From Gigantopelta aegis (Eukaryota; Mollusca; Gastropoda; Neomphalida; Peltospiridae), in the NCBI RefSeq assembly GCF_016097555.1, contig NC_054712.1:52859376-52923375 (forward strand): a DNA stretch of 64,000 bases, given 5' to 3'. This document shows positions 32,201-63,910 of this stretch, in pieces; position 1 is the stretch's first letter; every line of letters begins with the position of its first letter. The notes beneath the pieces were generated by a model. That model ran no database searches. It saw only the letters and a list, made by a program, of their open reading frames with translations, and was not told the DNA's origin. The position numbers and the translations under genes are program-made.

Positions 32201-35200
32201 ATTTTCTCTGATACTGTAGATCAAGTGTTAAACAGCCATATGTCGGAAACTAAATAATCATTTTCTCTGATACTGTAGATCAAGTGTTAAACAGCCATAT
32301 GTCGGACACTAAATAATCATTTTCTATGATACTGTAGATCAAGTGTTAAACAGCCATATGTCGGACACTAAATAATCATTTTCTCTGATACTGTAGATCA
32401 AGTGTTAAACAGCCATATGTCGGACACTAAATAATCATTTTCTCTGATACTGTAGATCAAGTGTTAAACAGCCATATGTCGGACACTAAATAATCATTTT
32501 CTCTGATACTGTAGATCAAGTGTTAAACAGCCATATGTCGGACACTAAATAATCATTTTCTATGATACTGTAGATCAAGTGTTAAACAGCCATATGTCGG
32601 ACACTAAATAATCATTTTCTCTGATACTGTAGATCAAGTGTTAAACAGCCATATGTCGGACACTAAATAATCATTTTCTCTGATACTGTAGATCAAGTGT
32701 TAAACAGCCATATGTCGGACACTAAATAATCATTTTCTATGATACTGTAGATCAAGTGTTAAACAGCCATATGTCGGACACTAAATAATCATTTTCTATG
32801 ATACTGTAGATCAAGTGTTAAACAGCCATATGTCGGACACTAAATAATCATTATTCTGCAACCACTGTTTCTAATGGCCGATTATGATGACTGATTAAAG
32901 CAAAGTCAGAAACATATATTAGCAGATTATGACTTTTGACGTCACTCATGTGACATTACATGCATAGCTATATTACAAAATCGCTCATTTGACCTCTAGG
33001 TCATCATACATTGTAGCTGAAATAACAGTAATAATAGCTTTTCCCCTTAATTTTTATGGTCTGCATGATAAAGATAATAACTAGTTAATGACATAGGATA
33101 TTGACTTTATCCTGTTCAGGCTGAATGGGAAATTCCACTCGGCAAGTCTCACAGAATTTCCCATTCTTACCGTCACAGGATACAGCTGATATCCTACATC
33201 ATTAATTAGTTATTCTCTATATAATATCAGTGTTTTTGCCAGAAAGAAATTTTTGGATATGGCGCTATGGAATTGAATATTTACAATGTGTTTGCTGAAT
33301 GCAACTGCAGTCAACAGGGGATATGGGGGCCTTTTCCAGATAGAAAATAGGTTAGGTTTAGGGTAAGGATTAAGAAAATCATACAGTAAATTTGGGTATG
33401 GCGCCATACCTGTTTTACACTGGCAGAAACCCTGAATATTATTAGGCTCAAAATAATAGTATGTTAGACACTAAATAGCCATAGCTTAAACAATGTGGAG
33501 GTGGTTTTAAACATTCCTTTCTTTTTTTTACTAATAGTCACTAAAAATGGTGTTTCCTAGGGTGTTATTCAACAAGTGTTACTTTTCTCTCCATAATGTG
33601 CAACGTAATTTTAATCTGTTGAGTGTAAAATGAAGTTCAAATGGTTCTGGTAATTTGTTTTTAGGGCTGCCAATGAAGTGTGGAGATCCAAAATTGTGGA
33701 GTATTTCTGTGTGGACAAATCTGTGGATGTTAGTACATTGGCAAGACTGCTTCTGCAAGGTCAGTTTTTTTTTACATGAAAGTTGTGCAATGTGATATTT
33801 ATGTGTTAAAACAGTAATTACATTTTAGCTCTTCAAACTTTTAAAGTCTAGACTCAAGGCTTTCATAAAGTCTTACCCTTACAAATATGTACTGCTCTGC
33901 AAAAGTTAAGCGCCACATAATTTTGCCAAGGTGTAAAACAGTATTTGCATAATATGTAAACACAATCAAACATATGTGGGATATTTTTGTATCATGTGTA
34001 TAAAAGAGTGATCCGCCAGAATGCAGAATCTCAAATATTTGATGCTTCTTCTTCTTCTGCATTCAAACTACGTAGTTGATCATGCTTTAGATTTGGAGTC
34101 TTCTTGTGTTGAAAAATACCGCTGTCTGAATTAAATCATCTCTGGTGAGATCAGCTAGTGCTTTAACCTTTCTTCATTGATCAAAGGGCAAGAGTACAGG
34201 ATGTGCTTTGGAGACTGTCGTGATGTTTGACATGAACAGTTGTCAGTGTCTGCCTGCTTCAGGCGGTACATAAAGACCCGGTGATGGTAGTGACCAGTCG
34301 GTAATGTGAATACTGTTGTCTGCTGGTGGAACTGAGAAACTTTCTTTTGATGATTTTTTGTTGTTGTCTCTCTGAAGGAGAATTGAAGAATTGATGCAAA
34401 CACTTGGAGAGAAATGGTAGAGAATTCCCCTGTTACAAATCAAGTGATTCAGTAGGAGTGTGATGAGGTGTCTCATTTAATATTACAATGCAAATATGGA
34501 GTTTCTTTTGGAAAGTAGCTTCATTCAAAATGTTTGTATCTCTATTGTGATCACTATTCATTTTACAGATGGTGAGGAACAGAGAGAGATGCATGTTCGT
34601 GGTGTTTACTTCAGACAGTTTCTTCCCACTACTCAAGAGGTGATGGTTCAAACACTATGATTCAGGGTTTTTTCACAGTTAGCTATTTAGTAATTTCAGT
34701 ATTTTTGTATACTTATATGGCAGTGGTACTTGTAATGTATTTAGTCTCTGTGTTTGTAATGAAAAATTCAACTATCAATTTTATATCATTCAGAACATCC
34801 TTTTATTTTGAAAAACTATTTTTGAAATTTATGATCTCATAAACTGACGATCAAAAGAAAGTATACCAATTATTTTTTCAAAGTATTAAAAACAACACAA
34901 AACACAAGTTGATGCAAATGTTATATTTTGAAAGTTTAATAATTTGGCGATAAATAAACACGAGTAGACTCGATAAAACCCATAAAATGATAATATCACA
35001 GTTCACAACAGCACTAGGGGTGAAATGTGCAATTTCATAAAGGACCATTCATAACGAAGGTGAATAAATTTGACCACAAAGAACATGTTTCAATAGTGTG
35101 TATGTCCACCATGTGCAAGTATGCAAGCATGGACCCGACGTCGGACAGATTTCCGTCAATGACAATAAGGTCTGTCCACTGCTGGCCACAGATACCGCAC

Positions 35201-41200: not shown

Positions 41201-44200
41201 GACTATTCAACGAAAATAATATAATAATATAGAATTATTTTTTAAAAACAGTTTCTGATGGTTTTCCATGATCACAAAGCATGGAAGTGAAAAAGTGTTT
41301 CCCATGAAATTTGAAATCCTATAGCCTGTGCCACAGGGGTGTCTTCTCTCTTAAGTAAGGTTTGGTATTTTGGCAGGTGATATTTGTTAAAATATTTAGT
41401 TTGTAAGCACTGCTACTGTAGAACCAATGTCATCATTACGGTAATTTTACAAGAATACTTTGTGTTCTATTTGAAATCCTATAGCCTGTGCCACAGGGGT
41501 GTCTTCTCTCTTAAGTAAGGTTTGGTATTTTGGCAGGTGATATTTGTTAAAATATTTAGTTTGTAAGCACTGCTACTGTAGAACCAATGTCATCATTACG
41601 GTAATTTTACAAGAATACTTTGTGTTCTATTTGAAATCCTATAGCCTGTGCCACAGGGGTGTCTTCTCTCTTAAGTAAGGTTTGCTATTTTGGCAGGTGA
41701 TATTTGTTAAAATATTTAGTTTGTAAGCACTGCTACTGTAGAACCAATGTCATCATTACGGTAATTTTACAAGAATACTTTGTGTTCTATTTGAAATCCT
41801 ATAGCCTGTGCCACAGGGGTGTCTTCTCTCTTAAGTAAGGTTTGCTATTTTGGCAGGTGATATTTGTTAAAATATTTAGTTTGTAAGCACTGCTACTGTA
41901 GAACCAATGTCATCATTACGGTAATTTTACAAGAATACTTTGTGTTCTATTTGAAATCCTATAGCCTGTGCCACAGGGGTGTCTTCTCTCTTAAGTAAGG
42001 TTTGCTATTTTGGCAGGTGATATTTGTTAAAATATTTAGTTTGTAAGCACTGCTACTGTAGAACCAATGTCATCATTACGGTAATTTTACAAGAATACTT
42101 TGTGTTCTATTTGAAATCCTATAGCCTGTGCCACAGGGGTGTCTTCTCTCTTAAGTAAGGTTTGCTATTTTGGCAGGTGATATTTGTTAAAATATTTAGT
42201 TTGTAAGCACTGCTACTGTAGAACCAATGTCATCATTACGGTAATTTTACAAGAATACTTTGTGTTCTATTTGAAATCCTATAGCCTGTGCCACAGGGGT
42301 GTCTTCTCTCTTAAGTAAGGTTTGCTATTTTGGCAGGTGATATTTGTTAAAATATTTAGTTTGTAAGCACTGCTACTGTAGAACCAATGTCATCATTACG
42401 GTAATTTTACAAGAATACTTTGTGTTCTATTTGAAATCCTATAGCCTGTGCCACAGGGGTGTCTTCTCTCTTAAGTAAGGTTTGCTATTTTGGCAGGTGA
42501 TATTTGTTAAAATATTTAGTTTGTAAGCACTGCTACTGTAGAACCAATGTCATCATTACGGTAATTTTACAAGAATACTTTGTGTTCTATTTGAAATCCT
42601 ATAGCCTGTGCCACAGGGGTGTCTTCTCTCTTAAGTAAGGTTTGCTATTTTGGCAGGTGATATTTGTTAAAATATTTAGTTTGTAAGCACTGCTACTGTA
42701 GAACCAATGTCATCATTACGGTAATTTTACAAGAATACTTTGTGTTCTATTTGAAATCCTATAGCCTGTGCCACAGGGGTGTCTTCTCTCTTAAGTAAGG
42801 TTTGCTATTTTGGCAGGTGATATTTGTTAAAATATTTAGTTTGTAAGCACTGCTACTGTAGAACCAATGTCATCATTACGGTAATTTTACAAGAATACTT
42901 TGTGTTCTATTTGAAATCCTATAGCCTGTGCCACAGGGGTGTCTTCTCTCTTAAGTAAGGTTTGCTATTTTGGCAGGTGATATTTGTTAAAATATTTAGT
43001 TTGTAAGCACTGCTACTGTAGAACCAATGTCATCATTACGGTAATTTTACAAGAATACTTTGTGTTCTATTTGAAATCCTATAGCCTGTGCCACAGGGGT
43101 GTCTTCTCTCTTAAGTAAGGTTTGCTATTTTGGCAGGTGATATTTGTTAAAATATTTAGTTTGTAAGCACTGCTACTGTAGAACCAATGTCATCATTACG
43201 GTAATTTTACAAGAATACTTTGTGTTCTATTTGAAATCCTATAGCCTGTGCCACAGGGGTGTCTTCTCTCTTAAGTAAGGTTTGCTATTTTGGCAGGTGA
43301 TATTTGTTAAAATATTTAGTTTGTAAGCACTGCTACTGTAGAACCAATGTCATCATTACGGTAATTTTACAAGAATACTTTGTGTTCTATGTCCTTTTTA
43401 CCCAGTTGTTATTGTTGCTCTGTAGTCTGTGAGGACATCATTGTCCTCTGCAATTAAGATCTTTCTCGGTCCATCCATGTCGGTGAATGGCTACTCTTCC
43501 AGTGTCTCCTCTTTTCACAATAAAAACACTTTACTATATACTAGCTGGGGAGATTTCTTCTCATTATTGATACAAAGAAAGTTTGTTTTGTTTAACGACA
43601 CCACTACAGCAATTGATTAATTAATCATCATCTTTTGGTAATTATGACTCATAACCATCAGAGGAAACCCATTACATTTTTCCTAATGCAGCAAGGGATC
43701 TTTTATATGCATTTTCCCACAGACGGAAAAGCACGGCCTTTGTTCAGTTGTGGTGCACTGGTTGGAACGAGAAAAAAATTAATCAGCTGAATGGACCCAC
43801 GGAGGTGGTTCAATCCTGCGACACAAGCACCTCAAGCGAGCACTCAACCGACTGAGCTAAATCCCACCCCTTATTGAGACAAAGTAACCATAATGTAGAT
43901 AACAAATAGCCAGAGATAAAAATATGCCGTATCGTTTTTGTTTTCCGTTGCACCACTGATGCTGTTTAAGAAAGCTGTATTATATACTAGACAAAAACAT
44001 TTAGCAGTTTGGTGCTACTGCATTGTAGTTTTAAATACAAGCTATATTCAATAACCTGGAGCCTAACAGGTGTTTCTGCCAGACGGTAAAACGGGTATGG
44101 CACCAAATGTTTGGCAAATTATATTTTTTCAAGTTAACCTTTTGACAAAATTAACTATTCTTATCATTACTATATACTTTTCATAACCCTACCCTAAACG

Positions 44201-47627: not shown

Positions 47628-50600
47628 ATGGATTCACAGGTAAGTGTACTGTACTACAGATAACAGAATTTGAATTATTAATTTACTGCTAGTTACTATT
47701 AGCCATGGAGAATAGATCCAACATCAAAGTGGGGTGGGACTTGACCTACAGTTAAAGTGGTTGGTCTAGAATTTATTCCCAACATTCCAGCCTGTGTACA
47801 ATGACTGGTTTATCAAAGGCTGTGGTGTGTGCTATCCTGGCTGTAGGATGGTGATAAAAGATCCCTTGGTACTATTCTTGCTCTAGCCAGTGCACCACGA
47901 CTGGTATATCAAAGGTTGTGGTATTTGCTATCCTGTCTGTGGGATGGTGCATATAAAAGATCCCTTGCTACTAAATTAATGGGAAAATGTATCAGGTTTC
48001 CTCTAAAACTATATGTCAAAATTACCAAACGTTTGACATCCAATAGCTGATGATGTAATGTGCTCTAGTGGTATCCTTAAACAAAATTAACTTATGCCTA
48101 TCCTGGCTAAGACTGATTAGTGGATATCATCAACTGTCTTGAGCCGAAATATGCCTTAACATCATTTATTCGGTACTTCATACTACTAAGCAGTTGAAAA
48201 GCTTCAAGATATGTGCAGACAACAGTGTGCATGACAGGAAGAAAATAAAAGTTGATAATAATCTATTCTAAATATTAAAATATTTAAAATATACTCAGAA
48301 TGTTATTTTGCTTTTTTAATTCATTTCTGAAGTATATTTTTTACCTTCAGATTCAAGACTCGCCATCTTCTGGCAGGAAGCAATTACCCAGCATTCCGTC
48401 TGATCCTCGAATGAACCATTCGCAGCTCAAGTCGCCTGCTAATCTTGGTGCTAATGGATACGGCACATACTTCCAGGAGTATTCCTTGATGGCAGAATAG
48501 TGAGTCAGTGTTGTTAACATCAACTGGGGGAGCGATACGTAGCCCAGTGGTTAAGCACTCACTTGATGCGTGGTCTGTTTAGGATCGATCCCCGTCAGTA
48601 GGCCCATTAGGCTATTTCTCGCTCCAGCCAGTGCACCACGACTGGTACATCAAAGGCTGTGGTATGTGCTATCCTGTCTATGGGATGTTTAATATAAAAG
48701 ATCCTTGCTGCTAATCGATAAGAGTAGCCCATGAAGTGGCGACCGCAGGTTTCGTCCCTCAGTATCTGTGTGGTCCTTAACGACATGTCTGATGCCACAT
48801 AACTGTAAATAAAATGTATTTGAGTGTGTTCTTAAAAAACCTATTTCCTTCCTTAACATCAACTGGAAATAGCACATTCCATCAACTGATGTTATATCTG
48901 CTTTGGTTACTTTTTACAACATAATGTTCTGATGTGTCATTATAAATTAATTACTTACAGGTAGGTTTTTTTAATTAGCCTATTACATGGCTTTAACTTA
49001 AGATTTTGTTACCTATAGAACTTTGAGAGGTTTTTAATTCAGTAACTTCTGTAACAAAATTAACAACCAGGCAAAAAACTGCCATAAGTCAGGCATGTCA
49101 TGTCATGACAGTTACAGCAACTGCTGTTTGTCCACCCTATAACTGTAAATAAGAAAACTGATCCTATTATTATAACTATTAAGTACCACCTACTACATCA
49201 CTCGGCACATAGAGCTACTGATTAACATTCCTTTCTTTCTTGCATCTGATAGCTTGGAGGGGTGGGACGTAGTCCAGTGGTAAAGTGCTTGCTCGATGCA
49301 CAGTCTGTTTGAGATTGATCCCCATCGGTGGGCCCATTGGGCTATTTCTCGTTCCAGCCAGTGCACCACTACTGGTATATCAACAGCCGTGGTATGTACT
49401 ACCCTGTCTGTGGGATGGTGCATATAAAAGATCCCTTGCTGCTAATCGAAAAGAATAGCCCATGAAGTGGCAACAGCGGGTTTCCTTTATCAGTATCTAT
49501 GTGGTCCTTAATCATATGTCTGACGCCATATAACCGTACATAAAATGTGTTGAGGTGTGACATTAAATAAAACATATCCTTCTGATAGCTTGGAATTCTA
49601 GGATTCCTCCATTTTGGCTTAAGAAGCACTAATTTACCATTTTTGGATTTGAGCAGTATTTTGTTCCTCTGGTCATTATAAATTAATTACTTACAGGTAG
49701 TGTTAGAATTAGCGTAATTCAGGGCTCAAACTTAAGACTTTGTTAGCTATAGAACTATTTTGTTCCCCTGAAGTATGTAATTTATTAAAATATGTTTGTT
49801 TTAAATATTTTTTTCAGCAACCAGCTTCATCGTCAGAAGATGCCGGGTGTTTATGTCATTCCATCTGCTCACTGCTCTCACAGTCAGTTACCATGGTTTT
49901 TGTTTTTGTTTTTTAGTTATATGCAAAAGTAAACACCTAAAATTTAAAGTCAAAATTATTTAAAACTAAGGTAGCCAGAGTACTCTGCTATTTGAGAGCT
50001 CGACAAATATTTGGACAGTTATAATCATTCTCAGCTGTCAGAGACAAATCTATTATGAAAGTGCAAGGTTTGTGCCTAATACAACAACAATCCTATGTTT
50101 GATATTAAATGCATTGACCTTGATCATTTTAAATATTCCACATTTTAATCACTAATACACACAACTGGGAAAAACCCAAGAGCACCTTCTTTTAACAATG
50201 TTTCAGTTAAATAAGTAGTCCGGCTATGGGGTTTTCCACTGAGCCATATGGCATATGGGGCCACTACACTAAGTAAGTGCTTTGGTATCATGTACGAGCC
50301 TCAATTCAATTGCCTCTATGCTTTAATTGGCTATATGTGACAATCAACTGTCGGTTGTAACAACTGTTGAAACATGTCTTTCATACCTAAGTAAGTGCAA
50401 GGCCCTTGGCACCCTTTCATTTAACAACAGTTGATTAATAATTGTTATTGACAACAAAGCTGGCACTTGCAGTTGTGGTAAACCGGTTATTGGCATAAAT
50501 TTGACACGCACCGGGGCTATGCAATTAAGCAGATTTGACTGTACAAGTGTGTGTGTGCGTTTGCAGTGAAAACGTAATGTTAGTTTAAAATGACGTAATA

Positions 50601-53600
50601 ATATAATAAACTATTTAACTAAATATATTTCAAGTTGCATTAACGGAACAAAATGGGGTTATAGTATTTTTCTCTGTTAAATAATCCAAAGGAAAAATGT
50701 ACACTATTAGGTCTATTGATATGCTACGTTGGAGCAAAAACGACAACCCACGATACCCAAGTGATAATTTTATTTTCTTTGGCACTACGTAATTGGTCAG
50801 TTCTGTGGTTTTAGCTGGAAAAGTCTACTTAATCAATAGTTTTACTGAACTATTTACAGTAATAAACCATGTCCATTACAATTTTAGGGGCGACAGGTAA
50901 TATTCCACAATACTGGTATGTATTTTTGTGTCTAGACAGCGTCAATTAATTGGCTCGTCTGGTTACCAATCAAATACACACCTGCCAATCAGGAATCACA
51001 GGTAGGAGCAACTAACAGCATAGACATATTAACTAAGAAAACTCCGTGTATCATTTCAGTACGTAGGTTAATGCATGGGCAAAACTTATTGTGATTTGCT
51101 GTTATTTATTAATATGTCTATTGGCTGGAAAACAGGAATACTGTAGATTTTTTAGGAATCCGATTAGGTTTTAGTAAGCAGTATTGTTGTTAGAGGTTGT
51201 TACGGCTAAGCGTGTTGATGTTGTTTCAGTTTGGAATGGCGTGTTGTTCATCAGACAAGGATTATACCAAGAAGGAGTCTTCCGCTTTACTCTGACCATT
51301 CCAGACAACTACCCAGACAGCGAATGTCCTGTGAGTCGCCACCTCAAAATATATTAGTATTCTTACTCAGTAAATATTGTGATCGTTTTCAATGATTCAA
51401 CATTTAAAAAGGTTTATAAGGCTCACTCTGCCTACAGCCAAATTGGCCAGTTTCTATTTTTTATACTAAGTGAATACAATGTTTAATATTTGGTTAATAC
51501 ATTATTTTTTTTAATTACACAGCTTTTAATAATTTCCCAAGTAATATTCTATGTACATTGAGTACCCTATATTTCACCCTGATATTTCTATACGTTTTAC
51601 AGAGTTTAGTATTTGAGTACCGTATATTTCACCCTGGTATTTGTATGTTTTACAGAGTTTAGTATTTGAGTATCCTATATTTCACCCTGGTATTTGTATA
51701 TTTTACAGAGTTTAGTATTTGAGTACCCTATATTTCACCCCAGTATTTGTATGTTTTACAGAGTTTAGTATTCGAGTACCGTATATTTCACCCTGGTATT
51801 TGTATGTTTTACAGAGTTTAGTATTTGAGTACCCTATATTTCACCCCGGTATTTGTATGTTTTACAGAGTTTAGTATTTGAGTACCCTATATTTCACCCC
51901 GGTATTTGTATGTTTTACAGAGTTTAGTATTTGAGTATCCTATATTTCACCCCGGTATTTGTATGTTTTACAGAGTTTAGTATTTGAGTATCCTATATTT
52001 CACCCTGGTATTTGTATGTTTTACAGAGTTTAGTATTTGAGTACCCTATATTTCACCCCGGTATTTGTATGTTTTACAGAGTTTAGTATTTGAGTACCGT
52101 ATATTTCACCCCGGTATTTGTATGTTTTACAGAGTTTAGTATTTGAGTATCCTATATTTCACCCCGGTATTTGTATGTTTTACAGAGTTTAGTATTTGAG
52201 TACCCTATATTTCACCCTGGTATTTGTATGTTTTACAGAGTTTAGTATTCGAGTACCGTATATTTCACCCTGGTATTTGTATGTTTTACAGAGTTTAGTA
52301 TTTGAGTACCCTATATTTCACCCTGTGGTTCACCCTAAAACGGGGGAAGTGGATGTGAAGAGAGCCTTTCCCAGGTGGAGGTAAGTAAATAATTCTGTTT
52401 TTAAAGACAAAGATTTAAAGGTAGGGTCAACTCACACAAGAGCCTTATGTGTTGGAAAGATGCATACCCGGACCACCAATACATACTGACACTTTAGCAA
52501 ATGAAAAACGCGTAATTTTAGAGTTAATAAAAAAACATGGTTATTCTTGCTAACTGGGGGCAGCCATTTTGTTTCGTTTTTGTGACGTCCAGTGGGATAG
52601 CTTGGGGCGAAGTTACATCAGCTCCTGACCATCTCCTGTATGTACAGTGTAAACAAAAGCAGTAATTTTCGACAAGGTGCTTCTCTATGATCAACCTGAC
52701 TTGTAAAACAGCATAAATGACGTAATAATATAATAAACTATTTAACTAAATATATTTCAAGTTGCATTAACGGAACAAAATGGGGTTATAGTATTTTTCT
52801 CTGTTAAATAATCCAAAGGAAAAATGTACACTATTAGGCCTATTGATATGCTACGTTGGAGCAAAAACGACAACCCACGATACCCAAGTAATAATTTCCT
52901 TTTCTTTGGGACTACGTAATTGGTCAGTTCTGTGGTTTTAGATGGAAAAGTCTACTTAATCAATAGTTTTACAGAACTATTTACAGTAATAAACCATGTC
53001 CATTACAATTTTAGGGGCGACAGGTAATATTCCACAATACCGGTATGTATTTTTGTGTCTAGACAGCATCAATTAATTGGCTCGTCTGGTTACCAATCAA
53101 ATACACACCTGCCAATCAGTAATCACAGGTAGGAGCTGCTAACAGCATAGACCAATTAACTAAGAAAACTCCATGTATCATTTCAGTACATAGGTTAATG
53201 CATGGGCAAAACATTGTTAATTTTTTCAACTTGTTGTGTAGCCACTTTGACAATGGTATTTTATTTTGTATTGAAAAATAATATATATAGTGCTGGATAT
53301 ACTTATTGCTGGCTTACTGGGATGTGTATTATTACAGAACATTGCAATGTATGACTATTTATCAGTAGTAGGAAACTACCGTTTCTGGGACACTTTCCCC
53401 CATTGGATTAACATAGGATAAACCGAGCCTCTCCCACCGAGCCCCAACCGTCCATCGATTCGAGCGGGACTTGTGTGGGCTAGCGAAATTTTGGGTTGGT
53501 TTTCATTTATTTCTAATTACAATCTCTGGTCTCTCTAGAGACTACTACACATATATAAAATGGACACACATAGGGTTACATCGATAGGCCTGAAGGGCAA

Positions 53601-56600
53601 AAACTATCTTCAATGTACAATGATTGTTCTATTCAATAGCTTGAACGTCTCAGAGGCTCGTATCCAGGAATTGAACTTCTTGGGCCAGTGCAACCACTTG
53701 ACATAGTGCTGTTTGTTGACCCCTCGACCTCTCGTGTTTAGGATTTTTTCCACTTTCCACAGGTCGTCATCTTTGACGTCTACTTTCTGTAGCTCCGACT
53801 GGTAGAAAGTGCCATGGATTTCTTCGCCATTATAGTCCTTCACTCGATACAGAGGTAGTCCACCATGTAATAGGGTTTGGCTGATGGTCAAGATTTCTCC
53901 TGTCCACTTCTCGTCATATTCCCGAGTGAATACATTTCTCAGATGTGAGAGTCTCACTTTATCTCCAACCTTGAATTGGAAACGTTTCTTCTTTGTTTTA
54001 ACATCTTTCTCTGGCCAATACATTTTCCACCAAATGTTGGTTTCCTTGCCTGGGCTCACTTTGGCTGGAGCCATACCAATGGTTCTGTGATAGGTGGAAT
54101 TATAGCTGTTGGCAAATGTCTGCAGATGATCGACGTACTCGTAGTCCTGTTTGTATGTGAAGTATCTGTACAATCGGGTCTTGATGGTTTTTAAGACTCT
54201 TTCTGCCACTGCAGCCTTGGTTTCGTTGTTGGTGAGCAGATGCCGAATGTTTCGTTGTTTAAGAAGTCTTTGAATGTCTTTTGCTCTAAACTCCATACCC
54301 CTATCTGTGCGAATTCGAGTGGGTTGTCTACCTTCTTGGAATACATCTTCTAAGGCTTTTGCCACTGTCAGTCCTTTTTTGTCTTTCAAGGGCCTCAACC
54401 ACAGATATTTGGAGAAAACATCGATTACCACCAACACAAAGGTGTAACCACGATTATAGTGTGCAAACTTTACCATGTCCATGAGATCGGCCGACCACTG
54501 ATCATCAATTCCTGTGACCACGATTCTGTTCCTGGAAAACGTTCTTCTGACTGGACGATGTAAACTGTATGACTCCTGTTTTTGTAACCACTTTCTGATA
54601 TTGTTCTTGCTAATGACGTATTTCCCGGCTTTTCTGACGTATCTATACAGTTTGTCTGGACCAGAAAAACTGGCCGGGTTGGATGGATCATAATAAATGT
54701 CTTTCAAGTAATCTTCCCACATGATCCTCACACTTCAGTAGTTTCAGCATCAATAACAGTTATTGGCAAAGGAGACGCCTATATACAGTCTGTAAACCAC
54801 TTGCACCGACCAGTGATCCATAACTGGTTCAACAAAGGCCATGGTTTGTGCTATCCTGCCTGTGGAATGCGCAAATAAAAGATCCCTTGCTGCCTGTCGT
54901 AAAAAGAGTAGCCTATGTGGCGACAGCGGGTTTCCTCTAAAAAAAATCTGTGTGGTCCTTAACCATATGTCTGACGCCATATAACCGTAAATAAAATGTG
55001 TTGAGTGCGTCGTTAAATAAAACACTTCTTTCTTTCTTTCTTTATATACAGTCTAGTCTTCGGTGTCTGATTCCTCTTCCTCAATTTCAGATTCATCACT
55101 GTCTGATTCCTCATCTGGTATGTCAATGTGAGAACTAACTTTTTCAGTCACCCTCTTCAGGAGTGGTTTGATTTTGTCTTTGAGTGTCGTGTACTCGGCA
55201 GTGCTTTCCATCTTGTGGATTCTGTCTAGAATCGGTTTCATCAAAGAAGGTCGAGAGAAGCAACGAGTGAACAGCAATGCATTTGCCAATGTATTGAAAT
55301 ATGTCTGCTCCCATGACTTGGCTATCTTTCGATCCACCCATTCTTCAGACTTTCCCTTATCCAAGTAGTTTTGTCGGTCTTCACGCATATCCTCTTTATA
55401 ACAATTGTAGACTAGCTGCCACAGATAATCCAGTCCAGCCATTTCCCACTCATCATGGGTGTCATCATGCCTTTCTTCCACCTCGTATCTAGCTCTCTTT
55501 GCAGGAGGTTCCCCTCTATTTTCGGGACACCATGTTTTCACGTGTCTCTGCAAATCGTGCACGTCTTGGAACACTAATCCACAATCGTCACAAGAATACA
55601 TTTCTGGGAGCTCTTCTTCACACGTCTGCTCACTTTGAAGGTCTGAATAAGAATGAAACATCTCTTGACTGTTCTCCCCTTTTATAGACTTTGTCAGCTC
55701 TTCTCCAGGGGTGTCGTCCTTTTGATCCAGAGCATTAGGTCGTAATCTTTCTGTAGAGGGTGTCAACGGCTTCAGATCGATAAAGAGATAACCGTATGGC
55801 TCTTTCACGGCATCTTCATATGGATGCATGAACGTTTGGGTATTTCCTGGGTACATCTGGCATGCCAAGGTCATCACTTGTTGCTTGTCGATGGGGTTGT
55901 TGAAAAATGCCAGGTAATGACAATTTCTTCTTTGTGTTGGATCCTTGCTGTTATAGAGGTTCTGGATGATGGCAATCACGGAGAGGTTTTGGTGGTGACT
56001 TCCTTCGGTGAACAGGTCGGTGATGCGTGGGTCTTTTCCAGCTGTAGACATCAAGTCATCCAACACGATGAGATTTCTGACTCTGGGGTCTAAATAATGA
56101 TCTTTTTCAAGATCCCCAGGTATGCCTCGAACGAATTCCACTCGAGCAACCAATTTAATCGTATCATAGAGAGGCTGCCATCGTTTGTAGAGCCAGATGA
56201 TGCGTTGGGGAGGTGGGTGAATTCTTCCATCTCTCAGCAGTTTGAACACCAAAAAGGTCTTACCACACGAGGTGGGTCCCGACACGACGCAAGGTAGTTG
56301 GTGACAGCGACGGCAGCTGCGGCTGTGGCGGCGGCGGTGGTGGTGGCAGGTCATTAGTATGTTTATGCTGAAAGTGTCTCAACATGACGTCTCTCCTGCA
56401 AAAGTTCTTCCCTCATTCTGGACAAGTGTTCTGATACATCTTGACACCTCGACGGTCAGACTCGAAATGAGGTTGACGTGAACGTCGCCCCTTTATATAG
56501 ATGACGGTGGTGGCATTTTTAGTCTACACTATCCGGTGGTCCTAATGTTTTATGCTGAGATGTGATAGTGGCCATAGGCAAGACTGCTTATGCCATCAGA

Positions 56601-59600
56601 CAATAGATACCTTTTGTCATCAAAGGGAGATAGCCCTAACTTATTCAGTTTGATGTTGTACAGTTGGTGGCTATAGCTCCTGATCTGAGTCATGTTTGAC
56701 ATGTGTATGCGTCTTTCAAAGAGACACTGTTTGTAATGTTCATGCTTTGTGTGGCTTTTGATGACACTCTTCTTGATCCCTTTGGCCGTTTTCTTTTCCA
56801 CCAGCTCACCTTTCTCCTCAAAAATGAGGGAATACATTTTGGATTTCAAACCCACAAACTCCTGGATAGGGATTCCATGAGTCTCATCCTTCATTTTACC
56901 CAATACTTTCTTGTTCACGGTACTATACAGAACATGGTCAGTGGGATACTCTGAAGTGTCAAACAGATTGGAGTCCTGTAACATGTCTTGGTAGATGTCA
57001 TCTGTCTGGATGTAGTAACACAACGAATCGGTGTCTGTGAACAGGAGTTGAGCTTTGGATGCATACTTGGACTTGATGTAGTTATAGTGAAAATCATACA
57101 TTAAGATTTTCGAAATGTCCAGAATGGCGAAACCCACATAGATCGGTCTGTTCAAAATCAGCCGTTGCTTCTGCATGTGGATGGCCACCAGATCTTTGTT
57201 GAAAATGCGAAAGGCACGAAAAGTGGGTTTGGCAATGAACTTGCGAGCGCGTTTTGAATTGTTAACCAATTTCACGTCCACGTGCTTCCTCAGGTTCTCC
57301 ATCGTCTTGCCAAAGACAGAGTTGTTCATCAGTTTGAAGAACTCTTTTTCAAAATCGTTTTGGGCACATTTGCGTCTGTATGTATTGAAATCGATGTAGG
57401 CCTTCAACCATGGGCTTTGTTCAAAGGCCAACACTCGATGGATCTTGGTCAGTTTCATGCCCAGTGAGATATACAATTTCAAATTTCGGTAGTGCACTAC
57501 ATATCTCTCCTTCTGTCTCAAGTTTGGGATCAGTTTCTCTGTTGAAATGCCACTCATATCTAGCTCTTTCAGAAGCTGGGAAGCATAGGGAGATAGCATG
57601 TCTTCAGTCACCGTCATTTTCTCTGGAGCAAGAGGATACTCGTTATGGAGGTCGTGTAGTTCTTGGGGATAGTCCAGGTCGACTTCTAAGATGTAGCCAA
57701 CAGATGCATCATCGGGTACCTCGGTCACATCTATATGGGGATCATCTAACCACTGGAACCCAGACACTGGAAGGGCTTGTGACATGGCCCACCCATAAAG
57801 GTTGTTGGCATCTAGATAAGCAATATAGGTATTGGGAAGATCAGGGTCGTGGTTTGGGACCTGGTTGTTGTTAGCTTTGGCATGACGATGGGATATCATG
57901 GAGATTCCACCCCTAAGTCCCTTTTCGATGAAGAGGTGCATGTCGATGTCTGTAAGAAGTTCGAGTTTCACACCAGTCATCTTTAGGGCTGCCTGCCATG
58001 CCAGACCTGGAGACGTGTAGAAATGAGCTGGGTCGAGTCCATAATAGTTCAAACAGATACACCGGAAATTTTCAAAAACGTCTGCTAGAGCCAAAACATC
58101 TGTTGAAACGTACAGATCGTGGTACTGACCGAGGTCTCGGATGCGAAATTCCTCCCATACTCCTTGGGCATGAGCATAGTCCTCGTCACTTATGTCTTCA
58201 TCAGTTAAGGAGCTTCGAAAGGCTTCTTTGGGTGGGAGCTGGATCTCTAAGAACCGAGCTTCAGAATCAAAGTATTCGTATGGGTAGACCTGCTTTCTCA
58301 ACAAAAGGGGCAGTTGATCTGCGCCGAAATGTTGAGTCATGTGGACAAACTTAGAAGGTCCTTCCTTGGCCAGATTGCTTACGAGTTTCTCCAAGGAAAA
58401 GTTCATAAACTGAAAGGAATCGATAAAATCCATGCACCCTAGACTGAAGGAGATGTACTTTTCCATATTGTTGGGAATGCAACTGATGGGTTTACTCTGA
58501 ATTTTTCCTATGGCCTGCATGATGAGATGACTGTCATAGCCTCTCAAGTTATGGAAAACAACGGGAATGCGCCCAGTAAATTTGTAGTTGAGGTTACATT
58601 CACTGTGGGTTGCACCCCTAAACTCTCCAGTAATGTGACAGTGGTCCCTGACTGGATTAGGACCGAGTGGCGCCTTACATATGTGACACTGCGTGGCCGT
58701 CTTGAATGATTGCCAATCTCGTCCCGTCATCACCATTAGCTCACACTGTTTAAATTTCTCTTCTATGTCCTCTTGTTCTTTGACCATGCACTCGACAAAT
58801 TTGTCGGTGGCATCTAATCCTCTATAGGTGACAAGTGGTTTGCAATGTTCAGGTGACAAGCCAACCACTTTATAGGCAAACCCAGAAGGGACGTGTTTAG
58901 TCATTTTCTCAGTGGAGGATGACTCTGGGCTTTTTTCACATCTTGAAATAGGCACTTGGAGGCATTCGAAATCAGCATAGACGATGTAGGGAACTTTGAG
59001 TTGTTTTCTTACATTCTTGTAATATAGCCATTTGTCTTCGTCTTTGGGCATGTCAACCTTCTGCGGACCATGTGTTTGACAATAAACAAGATGATCATCC
59101 AAAATTCCCTGTAGACAGTAAGGACAATAATGATGGCGATGACCATAGCTTTTCTGATCAAATAGTAGCCGGTTCAAGTCCTTGATCCAGCAAAAATGTG
59201 ACTTTTTACTGTTGGCGATCATCAGCAGGTCCACGTGCCTTTCAAAACGTTGTTTGGTCACGTGGAGTGGGTAAATGACTCCCTTTTCGTAACCGAAAAC
59301 GTTGATAGAAATATTGTTCTGCCTTTCAAACCGGGGAATATCGACCAGTTTAACGGGGAAAGAAATGCCAGTGGTGTCAAGTTGATTGACGTATTGAGCA
59401 TACTTAGCCACCCGCTCTGCATGTTGTTTGACGGGGTATAATGCCGCCAGGACCGACCACATGAAACACTTCTGGTCCCGATTCTGAACATTGACGATGG
59501 CATGCTTAGCTCTCAATTTGATGGGGAGGGGTGTGTAACTCGAGCCTCGAAGGGGTCGGTACCGAGCCATGTGAATGGTGAGGTCTACCACCTTATCCAC

Positions 59601-62600
59601 CGTCCAGTTGCTACCCTGCCTTTGAAATTCGATGAAAGAAGTATAGATCTTTTTAATCGATTCCTTCATCCCTTCATCTGGGTCTTCAAATTTAAGAGAC
59701 GTTTGACACTTGCCTCTGAAATGGGGTTCCACCGTTTCCACCACCTCACCTTTCCGCCTGCTCATCTTTACTTTGATGGTCAGGTACCACTTTAGCTCAC
59801 CTCGATCTTTGATGGCTTGCTTCAGCACCTTCTTGACCTCGTCGTACTTTCCCTTCAGGAATGTCATGGGGTCGTATTTCTGTATACCTTCTCCTGGGAT
59901 GGTATGAACCTGCATAGTGCCTCCTAGGGCTTGAAGGTCACACGGTGGCTCGACAGGTTCTTGTTGAGTGGGTGTTGGTTCGGTGGTAGATGTCCCTCGT
60001 GGAGTACTTTCATTAGCACCCCCCTGTTGTAAATGTGTCTTCAAATGACGATGCAGGTTATCTCTTCTCGTGAATGTCATTTTGCATTGACTGCAAGTTA
60101 GCTTCGGACTTCCATGGACCGTCTTCTTGTGACGGTTTAAACTTTGTTTGTGTGCAAAGGTTTGACCACAGTCACTACAACCGTATTCGAGCCTCTGCCT
60201 TTTGGCTGTTCTTCCATATTCCATACTTGTCTGGGCCTCCATACTGCAATAAAATAATTTCACTGACAGAATGTTTCGTCTCGATTTATAATTTTAGCTA
60301 CTATCCTATATATACCCTTCATTTGGAATAGTTTAAAAATAGGGTGGAAACCCGTTGTAAATAGTCTGGTGGTGTTAAATCTACATTTGTAATACTATCT
60401 GACACCCCTTATTTATTACAAAAGTAAACTCGCTCATTTACACGATAGCCATACCGCCATCATTTGTAATATGACCACCGAGCGGTGAAGGCGTGTTTTA
60501 AATTGTCTCCCGCACTTAGGATGGCCCTGGGACTTTTGCAGTATTTGTCATCTGCTAAATTAATATGTAAATACCACAGTAAAATCGTATTGACACTAAT
60601 ACTATAAATAAAATAATTTAATAAATAAAAAATGGTTATATATCACCCGTTACAGACATCCCAAACCGTTATACCTCGCACATTCAAACGTGTTCAATTC
60701 CACCATGCTTATAGCATAAAATAATTACAATCTATAAATCATTTAAACGATACTACAGTCTGGCATATTCTACACTTATGAATACTTCGTCGATAAGGGA
60801 GAAACTATAATCAGTTAAATGTGAATTCGTCCGCATCACAACCTGGTTCTAATTCTCGCTCCGACGACCTAGTTAATCGCTGTCGACTTCCGTGAAGCAC
60901 ACAGGAAACAACACCGAAACACGGCTATAAATCGCTGTTTATTTTTACACGGTCATTCCTCCACCATTTGGATTACACTTTGTAAACTCGATGGGTAATG
61001 GGAATAAATAAATAAACAGGCTAAATAAATAAATAAACAAATATAAATTACTCGTTTATTCTAAAGTGTATACTCACATTTCAGATGGCTTTTGTTTTTC
61101 TCGAGTAAAATTCAACGTGACCTTTTGCTTCTGCATTCGGCGATTGAATGACTTGTTTGGGGGAAATCCAGCCTTTATATACCCATCGGCTGCTAAAACT
61201 CAACAAGTTGAAACACGTCTAAAAATCCGCGAAGTAACGAGACAAGTCCAAACATGTTTTGTTGATACACAGTTTTAGGCATGGGGATTTCCAGTGACGT
61301 CACCACCATAAACGTTCAGATTGGCTGTTACTCGGTCTGTGGTACGAAGACAGGTCCAAACCTGTTGTATGTCTTGTTGCATCTAATTCAGTGTTGTCAA
61401 ATAGGGCATCGATACATTCTAAACTGTTTTAACACGTGAGTGGGGCCCTATCGCATAGTAGAAAATAACCTCGAAGTCCACTGAAGGGAGAGTTTCCTCA
61501 TGTTGAGCTTATGGAAACCCGAGCTATTTTTAGTGCCTGTCGTGGGCTCCAACAAGCGTACAGACATGTCTCTATCACTCATCTATTTTTAGCGCCTCTC
61601 GCAGGCTTCAACATACCAACTCGTCTCTGTCACAGTCTGCGTTTTGCACACATTAGCCATCCCATTAGTCGTTTAGAACATGTGGTTTGGGGTTGAGTGG
61701 GGTGCAATGGAGCATATGGGTGGGTACATCACGAAGGGTGGCCATCACAAGGAGGGTTACCTCATTCTATTTTTAGCTCGATTGGGAAACCCCATCTATT
61801 TTTAGCGCCTCTCGCCAGAGAGGCTCGCGGGGGGGGGCTCGGTGGGAGAGGCTCGGTTTATCCTATGTTAATCCAATGGGGGAAAGTGTCCCAGAAACGA
61901 TAGTTTCCTACTACTTTTATCATCCCGCAAAAACCAGGTAGATTGTGTTTCTCTAGTTCTAAGGCTGATTCTTGACGTTACGCGTTAAGTATTACGTAAC
62001 CACCAGCTCGCCAGAGGGCATACTCACTGAGATGGTACAAAATGGCTGCGCCCGTTATATATAATAGCCGTCACATTTAACCGTTTTATTAATTAACTAT
62101 ACGATTATACGTGTTGATATTAAGCAATAATGTGCATTATATATCGTTGAATATGCATACCAGGCCAAATGCCTTAATTGTCCTCTCCTTTAATATATTG
62201 AAAACTTTTAATGGTAAATTAAAATGATTGACAAAAAAGGTTTTGACAGTTTGGACATCACAGACCTGTATGGTTTAATAATAAAATGAATGATGAAGCC
62301 ACAGTACTTTTATTGCAAATTTTAAAAACATCTGACTAATTTAATTTTAATTTGGTGAAATAATTTCATATAATGATTGATATGTTATTAGAAAATAATT
62401 GTGGGTTTCTGCGAGGCTTGATTTTTTTTAGTATCAGATTACTGAACATTGCCGCATTTGTTGACAGTTAAGCTATCTTTGTATCAACCGAATCCAGGGT
62501 ACATTGAACCCACATTTCACACTATATGTAGTATCTGCTGAGTAATATCTCCCTTGTAAATAATTTTGTCCGTACACCACCTCATTGAGTCTTAAGACCC

Positions 62601-63240
62601 GCTTTCCATTAGTGCATTTCTATGTGTAAGTTTATCAATACATAGAGAATACTAAACGAGTTCCCATGTGAGACTATTTATATTACAAGGGTACATCGTA
62701 TTAGAGCTTTTTTTTCTCACCTTTGTTTTTTTTCATATCTTATTTAGGAAAATTAATATGCATTTTATTTACTTTTTGAGGGGCAGGACGTAGCCCAGTG
62801 GTAAAGCGCTTGTTTGATACGTGGTCGATTTGGGATCAATCCCCGTCGGTGGGCCCATTGGGCTATTTCTCGCTCCAGCCAGTGCACCACGACTGGTACA
62901 TCAAAGGCCGTGGTATGTGCTATCCTGTCTGAGATGGTGCATATAAAAGATCCCTTGCTGCTAATCGAAAAGAGTAGCCCATGAAGTGGCGACAGTGGGT
63001 TTTCTTCTTCATTATCCTTAACCATATGTCCGACACCATATAACCGTCAATAAAATGTGTTGAGTGCGTCGTTAAATAAAACATTTCCTTCCATCCTTTA
63101 TTTACTTTTCTGACTTTTCCGACTCTTTTTCTTTTTTTTAGAAGGAACAACAACCATTTGTGGCAGGTGTTACTGTATGCAAGAAGGATATTTTACAAGA
63201 TAGAAATAAAAGACCCATTGAACGAAGAAGCTGCAGATCT
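47628..63240 (+). CDS. AKTIP: AKT-interacting protein / fused toes homologue (partial, runs off the right edge)
   Basis: UEV-type protein (ubiquitin-conjugating fold without the catalytic cysteine), a subunit of the FTS-Hook-FHIP complex that links cargo to dynein. Coding exons: 47628-47639, 48351-48499, 49818-49882, 51230-51330, 52292-52380, 63142-63240. All joins are GT-AG and in phase. The translation begins [27 protein letters not shown] is conserved with human. It continues with [71 protein letters not shown] and [20 protein letters not shown], which align along the UEV domain. The last exons lie beyond the window. The start was chosen because an in-frame TGA lies just upstream. Intron 4 ends in a tandem array of splice acceptors, and intron 5 (52381-63141) houses a Polinton and a SINE. 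Confidence 0.93.
47728..48091 (+). mobile_element. SINE fragments (tail B) in AKTIP intron 1
   Basis: Two copies of the core sit back to back (47790-47870 and 47885-47975); the second continues into a tail B. The head is degenerate. Confidence 0.7.
48527..48852 (+). mobile_element. SINE (head H1, tail A) right after AKTIP exon 2
   Basis: Target duplication TTAACATCAACTGG ends at 48526 and recurs at 48853-48866. It sits 27 bp past the exon 2 donor. Confidence 0.9.
49259..49581 (+). mobile_element. SINE (head H1, tail A) in AKTIP intron 2
   Basis: Target duplication CTGATAGCTTGGA at 49246-49258 and 49582-49594. Confidence 0.9.
50588..51085 (+). repeat. 498-bp direct repeat, copy A (AKTIP intron 3)
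   Basis: Same length as 52715-53212 and about 96-97% identical by eye. Starts AAATGACGTAATAATATAAT, ends GCATGGGCAAAAC. No ORF and no clear terminal repeat. Confidence 0.9.
51556..52291 (+). repeat. 53-bp tandem array of splice acceptor plus exon start
   Basis: Each unit has the first 34 nt of AKTIP exon 5 (AGTTTAGTATTTGAGTACCC and on) followed by the last 19 nt of intron 4 (GTATTTGTATGTTTTACAG). Acceptor AGs end at 51602 and every 53 bp to 52291, 14 sites in all; the last is the true exon 5 acceptor. Units differ by one or two bases. Using any upstream acceptor would shift the frame and meet a TAG (ACAGAGTTTAG) within about 60 nt. Confidence 0.95.
52381..52714 (+). other. Start of AKTIP intron 5
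   Basis: Nothing recognisable as a gene. The stretch around 52420-52640 has the look of a dispersed repeat but only one copy is in the window. Confidence 0.4.
52715..53212 (+). repeat. 498-bp direct repeat, copy B (AKTIP intron 5)
   Basis: Second copy, 2127 bp downstream of copy A in the same orientation, so the pair flanks AKTIP exons 4 and 5. The Polinton begins 151 bp further on. Confidence 0.9.
53364..53445 (+). repeat. Polinton left terminal inverted repeat
   Basis: 82 bp matching the complement of 61834-61915 with about one difference. Preceded by the target duplication TTTATC. Confidence 0.95.
53610..54731 (-). CDS. Polinton integrase (retroviral type, with chromodomain-like end)
   Basis: 373 codons next to the left terminal repeat, the usual place for a Polinton integrase. 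The middle of the protein has the DDE-type core (around [14 protein letters not shown] and [11 protein letters not shown]). The C-terminus ([11 protein letters not shown] to KKFNSWI) resembles a chromodomain, which in related integrases is thought to guide target choice. Its role is to insert the element's ends into host DNA. Confidence 0.93.
   Translation of the reverse strand: MRIMWEDYLKDIYYDPSNPASFSGPDKLYRYVRKAGKYVISKNNIRKWLQKQESYSLHRPVRRTFSRNRIVVTGIDDQWSADLMDMVKFAHYNRGYTFVLVVIDVFSKYLWLRPLKDKKGLTVAKALEDVFQEGRQPTRIRTDRGMEFRAKDIQRLLKQRNIRHLLTNNETKAAVAERVLKTIKTRLYRYFTYKQDYEYVDHLQTFANSYNSTYHRTIGMAPAKVSPGKETNIWWKMYWPEKDVKTKKKRFQFKVGDKVRLSHLRNVFTREYDEKWTGEILTISQTLLHGGLPLYRVKDYNGEEIHGTFYQSELQKVDVKDDDLWKVEKILNTRGRGVNKQHYVKWLHWPKKFNSWIRASETFKLLNRTIIVH
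54792..55042 (+). mobile_element. SINE (5'-truncated, tail A) inserted in the Polinton
   Basis: Target duplication TATATACAGTCT at 54780-54791 and 55043-55054. Core and tail A match the H2-type copy at 30049. The insertion postdates the Polinton and lies between its integrase and ATPase genes. Confidence 0.92.
55053..56354 (-). CDS. Polinton A32-like packaging ATPase fused to a C2H2 zinc finger
   Basis: 433 codons. The first half is a P-loop ATPase of the A32/FtsK-like packaging type: Walker A GPTSCGKT near residue 26 and Walker B LIVLDD near 94. The second half has a C2H2-like finger ([19 protein letters not shown]), a basic patch ([12 protein letters not shown]), an uncharacterised helical region and an acidic Ser/Asp/Glu-rich tail. 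In Polintons this ATPase is expected to pump DNA into particles; without a capsid gene here its role is open. Confidence 0.85.
   Translation of the reverse strand: MTCHHHRRRHSRSCRRCHQLPCVVSGPTSCGKTFLVFKLLRDGRIHPPPQRIIWLYKRWQPLYDTIKLVARVEFVRGIPGDLEKDHYLDPRVRNLIVLDDLMSTAGKDPRITDLFTEGSHHQNLSVIAIIQNLYNSKDPTQRRNCHYLAFFNNPIDKQQVMTLACQMYPGNTQTFMHPYEDAVKEPYGYLFIDLKPLTPSTERLRPNALDQKDDTPGEELTKSIKGENSQEMFHSYSDLQSEQTCEEELPEMYSCDDCGLVFQDVHDLQRHVKTWCPENRGEPPAKRARYEVEERHDDTHDEWEMAGLDYLWQLVYNCYKEDMREDRQNYLDKGKSEEWVDRKIAKSWEQTYFNTLANALLFTRCFSRPSLMKPILDRIHKMESTAEYTTLKDKIKPLLKRVTEKVSSHIDIPDEESDSDESEIEEEESDTED
56550..60263 (-). CDS. Polinton protein-primed DNA polymerase B with N-terminal zinc fingers
   Basis: 1237 codons. 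Two C2H2 fingers lie near residues 26-80 (CSDCGQTF...H, CSQCKMTF...H), followed by a Thr/Pro-rich linker. Exonuclease motifs are YADFECLQ and HNLRGYDSH. Between them is a cysteine/histidine block like recombination endonuclease VII ([24 protein letters not shown]). Polymerase motifs are [23 protein letters not shown] and FTDTDSLCY. It is expected to replicate the element from a terminal protein primer. The start could also be the ATG 21 bp downstream. Confidence 0.94.
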   Translation of the reverse strand: MKLFYCSMEAQTSMEYGRTAKRQRLEYGCSDCGQTFAHKQSLNRHKKTVHGSPKLTCSQCKMTFTRRDNLHRHLKTHLQQGGANESTPRGTSTTEPTPTQQEPVEPPCDLQALGGTMQVHTIPGEGIQKYDPMTFLKGKYDEVKKVLKQAIKDRGELKWYLTIKVKMSRRKGEVVETVEPHFRGKCQTSLKFEDPDEGMKESIKKIYTSFIEFQRQGSNWTVDKVVDLTIHMARYRPLRGSSYTPLPIKLRAKHAIVNVQNRDQKCFMWSVLAALYPVKQHAERVAKYAQYVNQLDTTGISFPVKLVDIPRFERQNNISINVFGYEKGVIYPLHVTKQRFERHVDLLMIANSKKSHFCWIKDLNRLLFDQKSYGHRHHYCPYCLQGILDDHLVYCQTHGPQKVDMPKDEDKWLYYKNVRKQLKVPYIVYADFECLQVPISRCEKSPESSSTEKMTKHVPSGFAYKVVGLSPEHCKPLVTYRGLDATDKFVECMVKEQEDIEEKFKQCELMVMTGRDWQSFKTATQCHICKAPLGPNPVRDHCHITGEFRGATHSECNLNYKFTGRIPVVFHNLRGYDSHLIMQAIGKIQSKPISCIPNNMEKYISFSLGCMDFIDSFQFMNFSLEKLVSNLAKEGPSKFVHMTQHFGADQLPLLLRKQVYPYEYFDSEARFLEIQLPPKEAFRSSLTDEDISDEDYAHAQGVWEEFRIRDLGQYHDLYVSTDVLALADVFENFRCICLNYYGLDPAHFYTSPGLAWQAALKMTGVKLELLTDIDMHLFIEKGLRGGISMISHRHAKANNNQVPNHDPDLPNTYIAYLDANNLYGWAMSQALPVSGFQWLDDPHIDVTEVPDDASVGYILEVDLDYPQELHDLHNEYPLAPEKMTVTEDMLSPYASQLLKELDMSGISTEKLIPNLRQKERYVVHYRNLKLYISLGMKLTKIHRVLAFEQSPWLKAYIDFNTYRRKCAQNDFEKEFFKLMNNSVFGKTMENLRKHVDVKLVNNSKRARKFIAKPTFRAFRIFNKDLVAIHMQKQRLILNRPIYVGFAILDISKILMYDFHYNYIKSKYASKAQLLFTDTDSLCYYIQTDDIYQDMLQDSNLFDTSEYPTDHVLYSTVNKKVLGKMKDETHGIPIQEFVGLKSKMYSLIFEEKGELVEKKTAKGIKKSVIKSHTKHEHYKQCLFERRIHMSNMTQIRSYSHQLYNIKLNKLGLSPFDDKRYLLSDGISSLAYGHYHISA
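60264..61833. other. Polinton non-coding right part with subterminal repeats
   Basis: 1.6 kb without a convincing gene. Near the terminal repeat, the motif CTATTTTTAGCGCCTCTCGC or close variants occurs at about 61520, 61582, 61767 and 61796, in one orientation. Only short chance ORFs are seen, such as 61066-61278. Confidence 0.6.
61834..61915 (-). repeat. Polinton right terminal inverted repeat
   Basis: Mirror of the left repeat, followed by TTTATC at 61916-61921. Confidence 0.95.
61922..62776. other. Right part of AKTIP intron 5 before a SINE
   Basis: AT-rich intron with no recognised element. Confidence 0.5.
62777..63096 (+). mobile_element. SINE (head H1, tail A) just before AKTIP exon 6
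   Basis: Target duplication TTTATTTACTTTT at 62764-62776 and 63097-63109. Its 3' end lies 45 bp upstream of the exon 6 acceptor, inside the likely branch-point neighbourhood. Confidence 0.9.
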
Positions 63241-63319: not shown

Positions 63320-63910
63320 AAAGTTCATTTTGTTTAATGACACCACTGAAGCACATTGATTTATTAATCACAATTTGATTGGACGTAGCCCAGTGGTAAA
63401 GCATTCACTTGATGCACGGTTGATCTAGGATCGATCCCCATCGGTGGGCCCATTGAGCTATTTCTCATTCCAGTCAGTGTACCGCGACTGGTATATCAAA
63501 GGCCATGGTATGTGTTATCCTGTCTGTGGAATGGTGCATATAAAAGATCCCTTGCTGCTAATCGAAAAGAGTAGCCCATGGAGTGGTGACAGCATTTGTT
63601 TTTCTCTCTCAATGTCTGTGTGGTCCTTAACCAAATTTCCGATTCCATATAACTGTCAATAAAATGTGGACTCATTCTCTGACTGGGTTTGTTTTCAGAC
63701 TTAGCCAATGCCTCACGACTGGTATATCAAAGGTTGTGGTATGTGCTATCCTGTTTGTGGGATGATCATATGAAAGATCTCTTGCTACTAATTGGAAAAT
63801 GTAGCGGGTTTCCTCTCTAAGATTATGTCAGATTTACCAATGTTTGAAATCCAATAGCCGATGATTAATAAATAAGTTTCCTCTAGTGGTGTCATTAAAC
63901 AAAGCAAACT
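63320..63910. mobile_element. Three SINE pieces in AKTIP intron 6
   Basis: 63320-63372 is a tail B fragment on the minus strand, 63377-63666 is an H1 SINE with a clipped tail A on the plus strand, and 63703-63910 is a plus-strand core with tail B. Possibly a nested cluster. Confidence 0.75.

Follow-up and report, generated by a model that had tools for sequence, protein, structure and literature searches.

In the deep-sea hydrothermal-vent snail Gigantopelta aegis the boundary between intron 4 and exon 5 of AKTIP is straddled by a tandem array (51558..52325, + strand). Its 53-bp unit joins the last 19 nt of the intron to the first 34 nt of the exon, and the array as a whole carries 14 near-identical AGs (ends at 51602+53k, k=0..13). 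We are fairly confident that this is a neutral minisatellite of the type called mirages in amphioxus, that it is mostly treated as intron, and that splicing probably goes to the last AG in most transcripts. A small cost through mRNA decay is possible. The array most likely arose by accident. Positions are those of the window, by which we mean the whole stretch of 64,000 nucleotides that was analysed.

The gene and the repeat

An earlier note on this DNA named the gene AKTIP and numbered the exon behind the array as exon 5; both hold. When exons 2-6 are joined they encode 167 residues, identical at 167/167 positions to the G. aegis AKT-interacting protein-like isoform X3. X3 is a predicted NCBI model and the sole isoform compared, and it carries the junction made by the last AG. 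Pfam recognizes a UBC-like domain in the protein (UQ_con, E 2.1e-23), and for a 65-residue piece the best solved-structure match is AKT-interacting protein 8qat_D. Since the probable coding start of the X3 model (MDSQ) is at 47628, followed by GTAAGT, the number 5 is right for this model.

We aligned AKTIP from 27 of the 120 listed relatives. The exon part of the unit is gap-free in all 27 rows and is ancestral coding sequence. In the same alignment AKTIP of Haliotis asinina has two extra residues (DC) at most three residues from the exon-4/5 junction, as if the donor had slid by 6 nt; the position of this intron may be common to gastropods.

Table 1. Coordinates of AKTIP exons, of the array and of the repeat next to it
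Feature	Position	Strand	Basis or remark
Probable coding start of exon 1 (ATG 47628, MDSQ of X3 model, then GTAAGT)	47628..47639	+	
AKTIP exon 2	48351..48499	+	
AKTIP exon 3	49818..49882	+	
AKTIP exon 4, donor GTGAGT at 51331	51230..51330	+	
Old dispersed repeat copy, adjoining the array and cut off there; holds acceptor-like site ending 51522	51420..51558	+	
Partial first copy, 24 nt, exon-derived	51558..51581	+	Abrupt start where dispersed repeat breaks off
Copy 1, most divergent unit; AG 51602; spacer 21 nt, starting AT	51582..51636	+	Sequence reading; ungapped count from 51584
Copies 2 to 13, 19-nt intron part and 34-nt exon part; AGs 51655+53k	51637..52272	+	
Copy 14 spacer, real 3' end of intron 4	52273..52291	+	Frame analysis, protein model
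AKTIP exon 5, 89 nt; donor GTAAGT at 52381	52292..52380	+	
AKTIP exon 6, 3' of a 10.8-kb intron	63142..63240	+	

TRF describes the array as 14.5 copies of period 53 with 95% matches and a score of 1371. Read in the register of the gene, the regular unit consists of an intron-end part of 19 nt, GTATTTGTATGTTTTACAG, and an exon-start part of 34 nt, AGTTTAGTATTTGAGTACCCTATATTTCACCC(T/C)G, the latter with five variable sites among the copies. The 53-bp repeat with 14 acceptors and the anatomy of its unit are therefore as the earlier note had them. It also held that every spacer is 19 nt long and starts with GT, which is true of 13 of the 14 but not of the first (21 nt, starting with AT). Copies 2-14 have a mean identity of 96.3% and a minimum of 90.6%, and their 19-nt acceptor stretch is identical in 12 of 13, copy 3 having one change. 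In an ungapped comparison copy 1 shows 7 differences from the others; by reading, its spacer has two substitutions and two extra bases, and its exon part has two variants that are common to other copies. Copy 14 continues into the rest of exon 5 and the donor behind it. That 13 regular copies with a mean identity of 96% should have arisen by chance need not be seriously considered.

Repeat counts can come out wrong in long-read assemblies, and the copy number might be an artefact of this kind, with the animal having fewer units or a single one. The assembly that we searched (1.149 billion bases, 5,216 contigs) gave 41 listed matches for 51450-52450 (the best 40 of 340 candidates were scored). 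The one full-length match among them, and the only one to cover the array, is the window itself, with no second allele. Against an artefact stands the way in which the host assembly was made: the accessible part of its description (PMC7895826) reports PacBio subreads >4 kb, corrected with Canu (minReadLength 8000) and polished with Illumina data. Such PacBio reads are far longer than the 768 bp of the array, and simple stutter would not make the 8 distinct variants found among the copies. We consider an artefact very improbable. The structure of the array is real in this PacBio-based assembly, as far as that description goes; the exact unit count may be off.

Consequences of splicing to each copy

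If the exon-4 donor (51330) is joined singly to each of the 14 AGs, the frame is kept for 52291 only. With the other 13 acceptors the reading ends one unit further on, where a TAG follows SLVFEY(P/R)IFHP(G/S)IC(M/I)FYRV. The early stops were located for three copies, 1, 6 and 13, and lie 718, 453 and 82 nt upstream of the exon-5 donor. The usual rule of nonsense-mediated decay sets the distance at 50-55 nt, and by this rule the early-stop mRNAs from these three copies would therefore be decay targets.

The statements that an intact protein comes from the last AG only, and that each upstream choice runs into a stop, are thus correct for single acceptors (13/13 for the latter), but they fail for a few multi-step paths. 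When the 13 spacer GTs are also allowed as donors, there are 317,811 paths, or 8,192 if introns must have at least 60 nt. Beyond the normal path, 15 of the former and 13 of the latter stay open, so that rare two-step paths do keep the frame. They add 87 or 174 nt, that is, 29 or 58 residues, and every one of them enters the final exon at copy 13, in which TTC replaces the stop-making TTT.

It could be suggested from these open paths that the array contains mini-exons: a 34-nt unit together with entry at copy 13 would add 29 in-frame residues to the UBC-like fold, giving an incipient new exon or intron as proposed for the mirages of amphioxus. However, the insert would land in a conserved stretch of the fold, and the mini-donors of the spacers score between -0.4 and -4.0 versus 7.6 for the exon-5 donor. 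These scores use generic weights for human sites, not measured ones, and the contrast is modest, given that the other real donors of the gene score from -1.1 to 3.0. Introns are usually larger than 19 nt. The reading of the array as mini-exons separated by mini-introns, which the earlier note offered, is consequently weak, even though one real donor also scores low, and we hold mini-exons to be extremely improbable. A mini-exon isoform of 311 aa would fall outside our search of G. aegis proteins, which had a length limit of ~292 aa.

Another potential role is suggested by the early stops themselves. The extra acceptors could divert transcripts to decay, with AKTIP output dropping as the copy number rises and the copy number varying between snails. 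If correct, the array would be a natural length-tunable attenuator: 13 competing acceptors would send a fixed share of AKTIP pre-mRNA to decay, and this share would depend on the unit number, which would differ among snails or even among the cells of a single animal. The early stop that follows one unit on from 13 of the 14 acceptors, at a distance which (in copies 1, 6 and 13) the decay rule would catch, agrees with this suggestion. However, we found no sign of selection for the array in this analysis. In addition, a protein-collection search with the early-stop product returned 23 candidates, none of them close enough to be G. aegis: the best-scoring one had 58% identity over 89% of the query, and the top identity was 82% over 27%. 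The length range of that search excluded the full protein, and the candidates were judged from the match table and not from their tails. Decay-prone mRNAs would hardly appear in a protein collection, and absence there is no RNA measurement. Overall we think the attenuator unlikely, and some reports from other animals, discussed below, bear on it as well.

Choice of the acceptor

What could direct splicing to the last of so many similar sites? In the three copies scanned, a branch-point-like motif of the YTNAY type, TTCAC, precedes the AG by 24 nt (copies 2 and 14) or 26 nt (copy 1), and TTTCACC is present in all 14 exon parts. Since there is this motif and no further AG between it and the acceptor, every regular unit looks like a self-contained and complete 3' splice site. 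So short a motif is not diagnostic, and by itself it proves little because the control scan was mixed: exons 2, 3 and 6 have YTNAY ahead of their acceptors, exon 4 has none, and there are three before an extra T-rich AG site that ends at 51522, upstream of the array and within the dispersed repeat. The position used to score this extra site was off by one base.

Acceptor strength is unable to single out the last AG, because the regular units have the same 19-nt acceptor (one base off in copy 3). Their positions differ: copy 14 gives an 89-nt exon beside the exon-5 donor, while copy 1 gives one of 778 nt. Exon definition and splice-site proximity are established principles, and by both of them the last AG is favoured. 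The earlier note had left the choice between reliable use of the last AG and a dial acting through decay. We favour the former in view of the junction in the X3 model, of the 23 early-stop candidates without any from G. aegis, and of amphioxus splicing as presented in the accessible text of PMC3087553.

Two other ideas were considered and did not help. The units read ACAG/AGTT and so do not fit the ratchet points of recursive splicing, for which the motif is AG/GT. Folding of four units as RNA (51849-52060, 212 nt) gave nothing unusual (z = -0.59).

We can now suggest how a neutral minisatellite might have come to lie here and be tolerated. A short stretch across the intron-exon boundary would have been duplicated in tandem; later the usual processes of repeat turnover, such as slippage and unequal exchange, would have enlarged the array and made its copies alike. 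The last copy on the 3' side is still continuous with the rest of exon 5, which would leave the coding sequence intact and turn the other 13 copies into the end of intron 4. Most transcripts would be spliced to the last AG, as this one lies closest to the exon-5 donor and yields the normal 89-nt exon; its branch point, we infer, would come from copy 13, within the part derived from the exon. If splicing slipped to an upstream copy, the result would be frame-shifted mRNA with an early stop, which should be destroyed.

Turnover and left edge of the array

There are 8 distinct units among the 14. Identical units are scattered along the array (2=8, 4=13, 5=6=9, 7=11, 12=14), a pattern that unequal exchange or duplication of blocks would be expected to leave, and the difference between units shows no significant gradient with their separation (permutation 0.10). 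The upstream copies have lost coding constraint and are not maintained as protein-coding sequence, since the exon parts of copies 1, 4, 10 and 13 (4/14) have Arg at residue 116, where 25 of the 27 aligned AKTIP rows, including that of G. aegis, have Pro. Among copies 2-14 changed positions amount to 1/247 in the intron part versus 16/442 in the exon part (Fisher 0.009, with cells that are non-independent), and variable sites to 1/19 versus 5/34 (Fisher 0.40). The less-changed intron part could hint at some constraint.

The dispersed repeat that adjoins the array is 77% identical to the majority consensus of 28 relatives over 135 columns; 42 matches to it are listed genome-wide, the window itself included (the best 40 of 84 candidates were scored). 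Most of the 28 distinct aligned copies of this element run on past the point that corresponds to 51558 (GAAAATTGGCTAAACC...), while the window switches there to the array. Because of this, the left edge of the array as it now stands has the look of a junction made by rearrangement, and the half unit would thereby be explained.

A degenerate extra copy further upstream was considered but found no support. Local alignment of the unit with 51440-51557 gave 28, a score that was reached by 146 of 1,000 dinucleotide shuffles; within 51331-51557 it was 107 of 1,000, in six other comparisons 122 to 669 of 1,000, and in a plain-shuffle test 34 of 500. A transposon as the source of the 19-nt part of the intron was likewise unsupported, as shuffling the element consensus gave scores as good in 1,130 of 2,000 cases (with the spacer of copy 1, in 988 of 2,000).

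Minisatellites are common in the window, since five arrays of 334-3,420 bp found by TRF sum to 7,379 of its 64,000 bases (about 11.5%). A sample of 34 further loci from this genome (105,814 bases), biased in that the loci were picked by repeat matches and some overlap, has 3.0% of its bases in arrays with a period of at least 10 and at least 3 copies. If arrays originate at random, we estimate the expected number of boundary-spanning arrays per window as 10 x 339 / 64,000 = 0.05, from the ten edges of exons 2-6 and five units summing to 339 bp. Across a whole genome, cases of this sort should turn up even if they serve no function.

Other repeats of the locus deserve brief mention. Two further minisatellites, at 41309-43390 (period 160) and 32083-32857 (period 59), are probably young because they have 99% and 98% matches; others lie at 14977-18396 (period 49/147) and 12947-13280 (period 18 bp). 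Elsewhere in the genome a second array of period 53 (L020:1937-2572) has 12 copies, 98% matches and TTTCAG in most units. No gene was recognised by eye in its surroundings, and we take the shared period to be a coincidence. Exon 4, the array and exon 5 are flanked by direct repeats of ~498 bp, 96.8% identical (50588-51085 and 52715-53212), and recombination between them would delete exons 4 and 5. Intron 5 of AKTIP contains three long open frames on the - strand (53610-60293), one with an integrase (rve) and a weak chromodomain, one of 441 aa without a Pfam match, and one of 1,247 aa with sub-threshold C2H2 and endonuclease VII matches; this layout resembles that of a Polinton/Maverick-type element. 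Dispersed repeats similar to each other by eye are found in AKTIP introns at about 48536-48840, 49264-49580 and 63379-63680 (ends approximate), and they resemble a tRNA-like SINE of molluscs.

Similar arrays in other animals

Boundary-spanning minisatellites are already described, in amphioxus. Globin genes of amphioxus, according to the part of the report by Ebner and colleagues available to us (PMC3087553), contain minisatellite-like duplications of intron-exon boundaries, one of which is made of the 3' end of an intron and the 5' part of the next exon. The name 'mirages', taken up there, comes from earlier work on Adh3, whose mirage has units of 10-72 bp (PMC3087553, PMC3902484, both in the portions available) and for which somatic instability is cited in the former. 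In BflGb6 the mirage unit is 150-160 bp long, with 6 units in one haplotype and 3 in another, and RT-PCR on the globin mirages was consistent with regular splicing (PMC3087553). Lancelet TnC and PGBD5 are given as further mirage genes in the available text of PMC3902484. By analogy, variation of the unit number between individual snails is likely.

What these cases (Adh3; BflGb6, BflGb9; TnC; PGBD5) share with AKTIP, as far as the accessible texts describe them, is a minisatellite-like duplication across a boundary, with many units that bear splice signals. They differ in belonging to a cephalochordate and not a mollusc, in the number and length of the units (6 or 3, each of 150-160 bp, in BflGb6 versus 14 of 53 bp), and in that the AKTIP array has been read from genome sequence. 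Two features were tested outright, and on both the AKTIP array fits the description of mirages: its unit holds an intron end together with an exon start, and its edge copy is the authentic boundary, as 52291 is the sole single acceptor to keep the frame and X3 carries its junction. Regular splicing would be consistent with the predicted last-AG protein model and with the lack of a recognisable G. aegis protein among the 23 early-stop candidates. As for concerted evolution that excludes the edges, copy 1 is divergent, yet the last copy equals copy 12, and the distance gradient is the one given above (0.10). The amphioxus mirages are reported, in what could be consulted of PMC3087553, without interference with regular splicing, which speaks against an attenuator in AKTIP.

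Human ABCA7 can be cited on both sides. The accessible part of PMC5954066 describes a VNTR in intron 18 with a 25-bp unit, the first two bases of which are the donor of exon 18. Its length correlates with skipping of exon 19 and lower expression, as an attenuator would have it. Retention of a single unit causes a frameshift, but such retention is independent of VNTR length: isoforms with one retained unit and with cryptic acceptors are constant across VNTR sizes, and it is the exon skipping that changes. Both arrays repeat the sequence of a splice site in each unit, and the ABCA7 array starts with that site. The VNTR, however, is on the donor side, with intronic units and a measured effect of length, whereas the AKTIP array is on the acceptor side and has been read as sequence. 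In AKTIP the real donor of exon 4 (51331) is outside the array and the spacer GTs score low. All in all, the regulatory reading is less likely than that of a neutral by-product.

Human minisatellites at exon-intron boundaries in segmental duplications are a further parallel (PMC2812944, in the part accessible). They are variable, belong to recent human paralogs and may form novel introns, whereas no new intron is seen in AKTIP. Our literature searches, with limited coverage of subscription papers, found no boundary-spanning minisatellite of a mollusc among the papers listed.

Competing 3' splice sites are also known as NAGNAG or tandem acceptors. There the spacing is 3 nt, in contrast to 53 nt in AKTIP, which has 14 sites, each regular one with its own branch-point-like motif.

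Implications

With mirages known from amphioxus, what remains of interest in the AKTIP array is the number and sameness of its sites, and the phylum. Fourteen near-identical 3' splice sites in a row, within a gene that is conserved, offer a clean natural experiment on the choice of the true acceptor, and could separate two rules, the first AG after the branch point and the AG nearest to the downstream donor. Should the attenuator be true after all, this single gene would be a test bed for the choice of the spliceosome among identical 3' splice sites. The AKTIP case places mirages outside chordates. This suggests that genomes rich in minisatellites generally give rise to boundary-spanning ones as a by-product, and that these may be a way in which new introns form.
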